DNA from: Chryseobacterium wanjuense
GTDB lineage: Bacteria > Bacteroidota > Bacteroidia > Flavobacteriales > Weeksellaceae
Assembly (NCBI RefSeq): GCF_900111495.1
Contig: NZ_FOIU01000001.1
Location: 1-64,000 of the forward strand
DNA: 64,000 nt
Direction: 5' to 3'
The first letter of the stretch is position 1, and each line of letters starts with the position of its first letter. Below, piece by piece: positions 39,277 to 44,007 of this stretch. Below the pieces are notes generated by a model. The model was given only the letters and a program-made list of their open reading frames with translations. It was not told where the DNA came from and did no database searches. Both the position numbers and the translations under genes were made by a program.

Positions 39277-40215
39277 TTAATTTGACTGGTCACGAGCGGA
39301 GAGTGTTTCTTCACTAATATCCGCAACCTGAATGCTTTTAATGGCTGATTTGGTTGATGACGTTGTACTTCCACCCATGATGTATAATTTATTGTTATAA
39401 ATTTCCGCAGCAGCATGTCTTCGCGGGATCATATTGGATGTTAACTGATGCAGTTTATTGGTTTCTGTATCGAAATAAGCCAAAAAAGTTTGATTATTAG
39501 AACCTCCTACAATAAAAATCTTATGACCGGATACCGCTAATGAATGGCCGGATATGCCAACAGGCATCGTATATTGCTCAGTCCAAAGATTTTTGTTGAG
39601 ATCGTAAACATTAACCAAACGGGATGATGTACCGTTAAAACCACCAATAACATACAATTTATCATTCACAATTTTGCCCTTTGCTTCTCTGGCTGTGGGC
39701 ATATTGGGTAATGGATGCCATGTATCTGACGCAATGTCATAATATTGGAATCTGTCAGAAAATACAGTGGTGGCGGCGTTGTTTAGCCCACTTCCTCCAA
39801 ACGTATAAATTCTTCCGTTATGGATGGCAGAACCTGCATTTCCTGTGTAGGCACGGTTAACAGCTCCCTTCGTTTTTTTATGAGTTTCAAGGTCTACAAT
39901 TTCAAGATGGCTGTTTCCCCACCCGTTAAAAATATAAATTTTATTATCGTAAGTCTCCGAATTGGCAAATCTTTTAGGAACCAGACTGGAGTTGATGATA
40001 CTCCAACGGTTATCTTTAATATTGTATTTCTCAATAATAGTAGCATTGCCATCCGAATCTTTATAGCCATTGCTTACATAGATATTGTCACCTGCAATAG
40101 CACTAGTTATCGCTCCTCTTTTCATCGACATATCCGAAAGATGTTTAAAATTCAGGATTTGTGCATTGGCTAAGCATAAACCGAAAAGTGAAAGGAGGAA
40201 TAGTCTTGTTTTCAA
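39277..40215 (-). CDS. Exported Kelch-repeat beta-propeller protein
   Basis: A 312-residue protein with a signal peptide (MKTRLFLLSLFGLCLANAQ) and about five or six Kelch blades, each with a Gly-Gly pair and a spaced Trp/Tyr (for example GRIYTFGGSGLNNAATTVF, NDKLYVIGGFNGTSSRL, NNKLYIMGGSTTSS). Kelch propellers of this kind include N-acetylneuraminate epimerases and ligand-binding proteins. No sialic-acid gene is near, so the role is unclear. It follows the Shedu-type gene but has its own intergenic space (40216-40445) with a terminator. Confidence 0.8.
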   Translation of the reverse strand: MKTRLFLLSLFGLCLANAQILNFKHLSDMSMKRGAITSAIAGDNIYVSNGYKDSDGNATIIEKYNIKDNRWSIINSSLVPKRFANSETYDNKIYIFNGWGNSHLEIVDLETHKKTKGAVNRAYTGNAGSAIHNGRIYTFGGSGLNNAATTVFSDRFQYYDIASDTWHPLPNMPTAREAKGKIVNDKLYVIGGFNGTSSRLVNVYDLNKNLWTEQYTMPVGISGHSLAVSGHKIFIVGGSNNQTFLAYFDTETNKLHQLTSNMIPRRHAAAEIYNNKLYIMGGSTTSSTKSAIKSIQVADISEETLSARDQSN

Positions 40216-40373: not shown

Positions 40374-40398
40374 AAAACCGCTTTGAGGAAGCGGTTTT
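40374..40398. terminator. Bidirectional hairpin behind the Shedu-type gene
   Basis: AAAACCGCTT (40374-40383), loop TGAGG, AAGCGGTTTT (40389-40398). T runs lie on both strands. Between it and the gene lie two CGGGAGA copies (40422-40428, 40439-40445). Confidence 0.65.
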
Positions 40399-40445
40399 TT
40401 GTTTTGTTTGTTGCTCAAAGCCGGGAGACTTTGCGCAGCGGGAGA

Positions 40446-41531
40446 TTACTTTCTGCGTAACTTCCGATAAAATGTATCCCATGATTCCAATTTAAATGGT
40501 AAGTTAAAGGTCGATTCAAAATTATGTCTTTTGTAGCTTTCCTCTAAATCATTTTGAGTACGCCCACCTATTACTATATTATGAATGTTAATATCTTTAT
40601 TTTTATCTACAAGAGTGTCTTGTTCAGGACCAATAAATGCATTAAAAAGCTTATCTCTATTGAATGCTTTTTCTCTACAGTCATGAACAAGATTTCTAAA
40701 AGATGTTATATTTTCATGTATATATCTTAATCTATCACGAATTTGATTAGCCGCCGTATCAATTTTATAATTGAATTTTTTATAATTGCCTTTATTTAGT
40801 AAATTAAAATCAGCTCCTTTTACTTCAATAAGGAATACATCCATTCTTGACATGCCTGTTAAAAGCATAAAATCAACAAAGCCATTATTTATAGGGAACT
40901 CAGAAAAGCATACATAGCTATCATTTGGAGATGCGTAGATCTCTGCAAAAAAAGACAAATCATTTTTTAACAAATTCAAAAACTCAGTTTCAGTTGAATT
41001 TTTTGTTATTAATTCGTACAAAGAATTTTTTGAAATCATATTTTTTTCAATTTCAAACTGTCTTAAGATATATTGAGATTCTAACTGGTCAGGTAATTCT
41101 GAATGTGGAGCAATTAACGTTCTAAGTTGTTCAATTTCCTCCAACAATTCAATATTTTTGAGAGTCATATCACCTATTTCATTATCATCACATTCAAGTA
41201 ATTCTAAAACTCTTTCGTATGTTATAGATTCCCATTCTGTATTATTTTCTTTATTCAATTTAATAATATCAAAGATATGGTTGCGACCAATAGATGGTTC
41301 ATAATGTTCAATAAAAATACTAGTTTCAGTCATTCGATATTTCTCAATTAACGTTTTACAAATTGCTTCAATAGAATTTGTAACAGATGCAGAAGTATTT
41401 TTTGTATCTAAATCAGTAATAAGTACTAATATTTTTGAATGGGAATTTACAAATGTTCTAATTCTGCAAATTCCATCTTTATTGTAATTATTTGCGAATG
41501 AGTATCTAAGAATGAAGTCATTAATTTTCAT
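40446..41531 (-). CDS. sduA: Shedu-type (DUF4263) antiphage nuclease with an unrecognised N-terminal domain
   Basis: A 361-residue protein from the ATG ending at 41531; the frame extends back to a TTG at 41552, but a minus-strand TAAATTTG -7 box at 41550-41557 supports the later start. Residues from about 175 to 350 match the Shedu/SduA (DUF4263) pattern: ETEFLNLLKNDLSFF, the strand with Asp220 (GFVDFMLL), LIEVKGAD with Glu236 and Lys238, and Gln263 in TAANQIRDRLRYI, a complete PD-(D/E)xK nuclease core, then IVIGGRTQ. Shedu is a known single-gene antiphage system. The first 115 residues (CRIRTFVNS, KILVLITDLD, SASVTNSIEAICKTL, IFIEHYEPSIGR) form a separate alpha/beta-looking domain I cannot name. 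No other defence gene is nearby. Confidence 0.72.
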   Translation of the reverse strand: MKINDFILRYSFANNYNKDGICRIRTFVNSHSKILVLITDLDTKNTSASVTNSIEAICKTLIEKYRMTETSIFIEHYEPSIGRNHIFDIIKLNKENNTEWESITYERVLELLECDDNEIGDMTLKNIELLEEIEQLRTLIAPHSELPDQLESQYILRQFEIEKNMISKNSLYELITKNSTETEFLNLLKNDLSFFAEIYASPNDSYVCFSEFPINNGFVDFMLLTGMSRMDVFLIEVKGADFNLLNKGNYKKFNYKIDTAANQIRDRLRYIHENITSFRNLVHDCREKAFNRDKLFNAFIGPEQDTLVDKNKDINIHNIVIGGRTQNDLEESYKRHNFESTFNLPFKLESWDTFYRKLRRK

Positions 41532-41598
41532 AATTGTATTTTTTACTTTCAAATTTAATAATTCTGACTAAGAATTTATGTGTGTCTAATAATAAAAA

Positions 41599-41624
41599 AA
41601 CCGCCCCACAAAAGCAGAACGGTT
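41599..41624 (-). terminator. Terminator of groEL
   Basis: On the minus strand AACCGTTCTGC pairs with GTGGGGCGGTT over 11 bp with G-U pairs, loop TTTT, then seven T. Confidence 0.75.
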
Positions 41625-41654: not shown

Positions 41655-43721
<2,067 letters not shown>

Positions 43722-43728
43722 CTGCTTT

Positions 43729-44007
43729 TTATCCAATAATTCCTAAAAGATCTCCTTCTTTTACAATTAAATAATCCTTTCCTTCCAATTTCAATTCAGA
43801 ACCTGAATATTTTCCATAAAGAACTTTGTCACCTACTTTAACAGTTGTAGGCTCATCTTTTTTACCGGGACCTACTGCTACTACAGTACCTTCTTGAGGT
43901 TTTTCTTTTGCGGTGTCCGGAATAATAATACCTGAAGCTGTTTTAGTTTCTGCAGCGATCGGCTCGATCAAAACTCTGTCTGCTAATGGTTTAAAGTTTA
44001 CTGACAT
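43729..44007 (-). CDS. groS: Co-chaperonin GroES
   Basis: A 92-residue co-chaperonin that caps Gro[15 protein letters not shown] at the start, the mobile-loop region [31 protein letters not shown] and [11 protein letters not shown] match the family. It heads the groES / four-helix-bundle / groEL unit. Normal length. No CIRCE box or clear TAnnTTTG box could be found in 44008-44154. Confidence 0.96.

Follow-up and report, generated by a model that had tools for sequence, protein, structure and literature searches.

The 64,000-nucleotide stretch of Chryseobacterium wanjuense analysed here (the window; contig NZ_FOIU01000001.1, positions 1 to 64,000) carries a gene for a predicted Shedu (SduA) nuclease directly behind groEL, in an interval that, judged by comparison of related loci, is an insertion hotspot throughout the genus. 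In many related genomes this interval contains partial copies of the groEL 3' end with small genes between them. We consider it likely that the Shedu gene arrived at this hotspot as a groEL-end unit and that such units are exchanged mainly by homologous recombination. The gene would then have come as one unit of an array, each unit made of a leader, a gene and a groEL 3' end and exchanged between strains; the exchange would take place chiefly inside the repeated groEL ends, groEL itself would stay whole, and in the window the trailing groEL copy would have been lost or would never have been present.

The sduA-like gene is an open reading frame (ORF) of 361 residues plus stop on the minus strand (40446..41531), with an ATG at 41531. 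An alternative TTG start is possible 21 bp upstream, and the ATG is preferred because M1 is invariant in 55 aligned homologs; on the plus strand of the same interval the corresponding frame contains many stops. A preliminary description of this DNA, made from the sequence, had proposed a nuclease of the Shedu/DUF4263 type, and the assignment held in every search: Pfam SduA_C (PF14082) matched residues 178-355 (40467..41000, minus strand; 3.5e-25, 89.5 bits against a cut-off of 27), the PADLOC SduA model matched the full length (residues 1-361, 5.5e-148), both well beyond what chance would give, and the best fold matches were EcSduA and BcSduA over residues 151-361, the nuclease-domain fold of solved Shedu proteins being present. 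The four PD-(D/E)xK residues that it had named (D220, E236, K238 and Q263) are each invariant among the 55 aligned sequences. A search of 5.8 billion proteins yielded 180 homologs; the 120 listed among them were 41-93% identical, nearly all with full coverage of the query and all with PF14082. The phage search gave a single match (36%), in an unannotated faecal record, and the plasmid search gave none. By these matches we assign the predicted product to the Shedu (SduA) nucleases, a known family of which it is a new representative.

As two publications describe them (PMC12137116, PMC12904381), the type I Shedu anti-phage nucleases EcSduA, BcSduA and VcSduA share with the present protein the SduA_C domain, the PD-(D/E)xK motif, the single-gene organization and a separate N-terminal domain. 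Here, residues 1-125 (41157..41531, minus strand) are predicted to form a beta3-alpha-beta3-alpha domain (predicted local distance difference test, pLDDT, 88.8; predicted template modelling score, pTM, 0.84). The earlier suggestion of a distinct N-terminal domain stood in so far as the Pfam search found no domain in residues 1-150, but the domain is family-wide, common to the homologs found rather than particular to the present gene, because nearly all of the 120 listed homologs and the PADLOC SduA model span the whole query. As points of difference, the domain gave no match to the N-terminal part of EcSduA or BcSduA in the searches made, though the two may still be related, and by Pfam the protein contains no GHKL ATPase of the VcSduA type. 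EcSduA is described in a 2026 review (PMC12904381) as a tetramer in which an N-terminal clamp binds DNA ends and the nuclease cuts at a fixed distance; the same text states that N-terminal domains vary among other Shedu proteins and may set specificity, and a Vibrio study (PMC12137116) views Shedu as a common nuclease with diverse N-terminal domains. By analogy with the characterised proteins, the present one would be oligomeric, its N-terminal part would control cutting, and invading phage DNA would be cut; this step would be triggered by a signal sensed by residues 1-125.

In agreement with the earlier view of a gene standing alone between ordinary genes as if inserted, the Shedu gene lies by itself between groEL and the next gene, and its locus is not conserved in all relatives. 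Shedu was found in three of 173 genus genomes, namely the window genome, G089 (77% identical) and G143 (a 47-residue piece at a contig end), and both full-length copies directly follow groEL. In 35 same-genus relatives, comparison of the 130 bp that follow groEL showed similarity as far as the terminator reaches and mostly divergence beyond it (exceptions include the pairs L033/L047 and L053/L058), the variable region running until shared genes, for example a Kelch-like one, reappear. One relative, G029, comes near to an empty site, with a shared gene beginning 147 bp after groEL.

Copies of the groEL 3' end were sought at 117 loci, comprising the 35 relatives, G089, the window and 80 further genus genomes chosen by their rank in groEL similarity; this sample is not a random draw, and several loci cut by contig ends were counted nonetheless. 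From 180 raw clusters at 77 loci, a score of 50 left 143 copies at 68 loci, and removal of the one at L072 (the intact groEL's own end) and of eight with less than 20 bp of coding sequence left 134 at the same 68 loci; intervals, left ends and array positions were computed with the set of 143. The 134 partial copies, each comprising 20 bp or more of coding sequence and mostly the terminator as well, all lie downstream of groEL and on its strand. Relative to the groEL stop, 122 of the 134 extend to +50 or further, the starts span -247 to about -20 with two before -209, and the copies reach a length of about 270 bp. The controls were empty: no copies were detected on the reverse strand of the genus loci, none of the groEL segments -1250..-725 and -725..-250, and none in 96 kb upstream of groEL at 116 loci. 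When groEL was searched against the whole genomes of 59 relatives, the picture was the same: extra matches fell nearly all on the last 25-67 residues, within about 6 kb behind the gene and on the same strand, and two more were to different parts of it (G021, G056). More than one groEL match was present in 75 of 173 genus genomes, versus two matches in two of 147 genomes in the rest of the family, a less sensitive count in which at most four candidates were scored per genome.

The copies delimit 142 intervals with a median of 963 bp (eight below 100 bp, 16 above 3.5 kb), of which 95 contain exactly one ORF of at least 100 residues. Ninety intervals group into 19 families that recur between genomes and species, 14 of them at differing array positions; grouping was by single linkage, and the two largest families join intervals of 381 to 10228 bp with only partial sharing. 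Taking one interval per family, with a limit of 3.5 kb and an ORF of at least 120 residues, gave 55 distinct cassettes, and in 53 of these the longest ORF runs in the groEL direction. The comparison of 41 pairs gave 90-99% identity for the unit and mostly no such identity for the sequence past the copy; the pairs used here and in the further pairwise comparisons below have genomes in common and are not independent. The start of the groEL copy agrees within 10 bp among all members in seven of the 19 families, with values that mostly differ between families. A leader motif near TATGGTTTTCCGTAAGGAAATA opens 41 of 254 units versus 0 of 224 background windows (one unit being counted twice). Across the 173 genomes the motif gave 70 matches in 58 genomes, against none for a reversed control pattern, and of the 64 matches that could be placed, 54 are on the groEL strand and at most 20 kb downstream of the gene, and 10 are elsewhere. 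At L033, L035, L037, L061, L063, L101 and L118, groEL copies that start near -116 or -140 are immediately preceded by a recurring hairpin near ATCCTTGTCAAGGTTTAAAACCTTGACAAGGAT, which may be a small mobile repeat of palindromic type.

For the Shedu gene itself, the link to these arrays is provided by G089. From 12 bp past its Shedu stop a decayed groEL end can be aligned, from about -103 to +63 and clearly over the last part; it was missed by the score cut, spotted by eye and scored afterwards, at 61.5, whereas none of 100 shuffles exceeded 25.5. There is a second groEL copy at +1909. Comparison of this locus with the arrays shows the G089 Shedu gene to be a cassette. In the window, the Shedu gene is probably a cassette as well; its membership in an array we infer from its position and from G089, since neither a groEL copy behind the gene nor a leader motif is detectable in the window itself.

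Several observations weigh against this reading. The 238 bp behind the Shedu gene in the window contain no detectable groEL copy (score 20.5, against 24.5 as the 95% level of shuffled sequence), a pattern search found no leader motif in the window genome, and 49 of the 117 loci are without a groEL copy. The right boundaries disagree in 12 of the 19 recurring families, blurred as they are by decay or further genes; decay blurs the copy starts as well. In 13 of 14 cassette pairs (at least 94.5% identical), the left switch point falls between +18 and +99, counted from the stop of the groEL end before it; the pair L033/L047 is uninformative, as its groEL genes are as similar as its cassettes. On the right side, high identity continues 15-102 bp into the groEL copy in five of the 14 and stops at or before the copy start in nine, a variation that speaks for homologous recombination. 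With simple homologous recombination, some of the donor's groEL end would be expected to travel along, yet 19 pairs with a common first cassette were not consistently more similar in their groEL 3' ends, two of them approaching an excess (0.058 and 0.054 of controls as high). The nearly constant left end and the missing co-transfer of the groEL 3' end are not a direct outcome of homologous recombination, and may reflect later exchange within species. Finally, a solo tyrosine recombinase (276-286 residues) sits at groEL or at a groEL copy in three loci.

This last observation keeps an enzymatic origin alive, in the form of site-specific accretion, which we regard as possible but rather doubtful. 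Small elements would enter the groEL 3' end by means of a tyrosine recombinase and bring their own groEL end, the old end would be left as a remnant, and decayed elements without an integrase would stack, like streptococcal cis-mobilizable elements (CIMEs); stacking of decayed elements at the 3' end of a gene is indeed described in PMC5704250. The solo recombinases are convergent to groEL at +64 (G101) and +65 (G106) and, in G188, to a groEL copy that ends 23 bp earlier; they are 80-87% alike, and by locus they occupy +65..+898 (L125) and +64..+924 (L144) behind groEL and +5341..+6171 behind a groEL copy (L081). Two broken partial relatives were found in G172 (91%) and G148 (89%), by coordinates about 3.7 and about 1.7 kb behind groEL, and the copy starts crowd near -200 (21 of 134), -137 (22) and -115 (16), as such a process might produce. 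Relatives that are 72-73% alike occur in four genomes (L195-L198), where they face the 3' end of another gene in convergent orientation; we read this gene as asparaginase-like. If the recombinase had made the arrays, the asparaginase 3' end might bear them too, because these relatives sit there; however, at the protein level that gene is without such arrays (more than one match in five of 173 genomes), a search that short copies could escape. Moreover, the recombinase is absent from nearly all arrays: in a tblastn search with the integrases of the window genome, four of the 117 loci had a tyrosine recombinase no more than 9 kb from groEL, one of a different multicopy type, and no integrase of the window's own genome lies near the window's groEL. 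The groEL 3' end, not visibly swapped along with the first cassette, argues against accretion as well, and the scatter of right boundaries between cassettes is the reason for favouring homologous recombination over one fixed integrase site. In G109 (contigs C1 and C2), twelve recombinase matches of 37% identity and mostly equal length were observed, one about 3 kb behind groEL, as if they came from a multicopy mobile element.

It is unlikely that the interval is a plain genomic island, a generic insertion-prone stretch which the Shedu gene entered by illegitimate recombination and for which the groEL copies of relatives are irrelevant. Such an origin would fit the window, with neither a groEL copy behind its Shedu gene nor a leader motif in its genome; it would also fit the low GC content (0.26-0.31 in windows over the gene versus 0.35-0.43 adjoining, with 0.30 again at 43250-43749) and the 32 Shedu loci outside the genus, which have no groEL within the fetched flanks. 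Against it stand the full-length Shedu of G089, which occupies the corresponding position and is immediately followed by a groEL end, and the groEL copies within the intervals of 68 of the 117 loci. Repeated tandem duplication of the groEL 3' end by replication slippage, with insertions between the copies later, is very improbable: the uniform orientation behind groEL and the closeness of some copies to the groEL of their own genome would agree with it, but the same units are met again in different species and elsewhere in the array (14 of the 19 families) and the 41 pairs share the unit and mostly not the sequence after it.

Beyond the single locus, we tentatively propose, as something short of an even prospect, that Chryseobacterium-type bacteria possess a gene-capture platform without a resident integrase, in which the groEL 3' end and its terminator, copied behind captured genes, act like attC, and mostly single-gene cassettes (Shedu, Gabija-like, TIR, SLATT, immunity proteins and many unnamed ones) are swapped between species by homologous recombination beside an essential gene. 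The array resembles a cassette array with groEL ends in place of attC. Like mobile integron cassettes, its units are short, mostly with a single ORF, uniform in direction, spread across species in varying order and closed by a characteristic end repeat; in contrast to integrons, the repeat is a groEL 3' end with terminator and the boundaries vary. Integrons carry intI beside the array; the tblastn search found no integrase in most of the present arrays, and tyrosine recombinases lie near groEL in four of the 117 loci. CIMEs and tandem island accretion, as presented in PMC5704250, likewise consist of elements stacked one behind another, with a copy of the target-gene 3' end after each and mostly without recombinase; the present arrays differ by units of about 1 kb with mostly one ORF and by copies of at most about 270 bp with varying start, and no single crossover point was seen in the loci compared. 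As cassette arrays or accretion sites, the groEL-end arrays represent a new variant, and perhaps a new kind of capture platform; a literature search, with most subscription papers and preprints outside its reach, found no report of groEL-end cassette arrays. Shedu is already known, and its location at groEL ends is seemingly new. If groEL ends truly act as exchange points, the genus as a whole would possess a common pool of small genes that is easy to locate and in which many genes belong to no known family; each of these small genes, adjoining known defence genes, would be a candidate for defence or competition.

The cargo is diverse. Behind groEL in 33 of the 35 relatives, 120 ORFs were collected, and the best 25 of 262 PADLOC families and the best 25 of 52 Pfam families were examined for names; among these best matches were reverse transcriptases, AbiJ, AbiLi, Mrr, GmrSD, TIR, AAA and Schlafen proteins and hydrolases. 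Other cargo includes ecotin, an NTF2-type immunity protein, a hydrolase and propeller proteins. At 1e-5, PADLOC named four of 20 cassette genes drawn at random from the 55 distinct cassettes (the G089 Shedu among them) versus one of 20 control genes from beyond 9 kb, a difference too small for an enrichment of known defence families to be claimed.

The remaining features of the window surround the Shedu gene on the minus strand. Intact groEL (41655..43280) ends in the sequence that is repeated in the arrays of relatives, its last 203 bp or so (41655..41857) being near the usual maximum found in their copies, while the window itself holds no further copy; cross-species similarity mostly stops behind its terminator-like hairpin (41599..41624), where the variable region starts. 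Between this hairpin and the Shedu start, TAAATTTG (41550..41557) is a candidate promoter of the gene's own and fits TAnnTTTG, the Bacteroidota promoter motif. A further terminator-like hairpin, listed on both strands, follows the Shedu gene (40374..40398), and beyond it lies the Kelch-like gene (39277..40215; the label is that of the preliminary description), the far edge of the hotspot in many relatives, with its family present in 25 of 36 loci.

The CGGGAGA repeats to which the preliminary description had also pointed as a trace of insertion are two copies of one 7-mer, 17 bp apart and just after the Shedu stop as stated, yet they mark no insertion junction. One of them is half of the palindrome CAAAGTCTCCCGGCTTTG (40416..40433, minus strand), which occurs once in the window genome at up to two mismatches. 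Palindromes like CAAAGTCTCCCGACTTTG gave 45 strict-pattern matches in the 117 genus loci, that of the window included, and at times stand just before groEL copies (for example L080 +970, L131 +1022); by a looser pattern, palindromes of the window type were found within 120 bp before eight of the 143 copies versus five of 672 background windows. A target-site duplication, or repeats made by insertion, was rejected because no matching copy was seen on the other side of the Shedu gene. The repeated groEL 3' ends in related genomes, outside the coordinates covered by the preliminary description, are a better sign of insertion than this motif. Lastly, a small ORF of 119 residues lies between groES and groEL (43335-43694), with a 46% identical counterpart at the same place in G089; it may resemble the four-helix proteins that are linked to rRNA intervening sequences.
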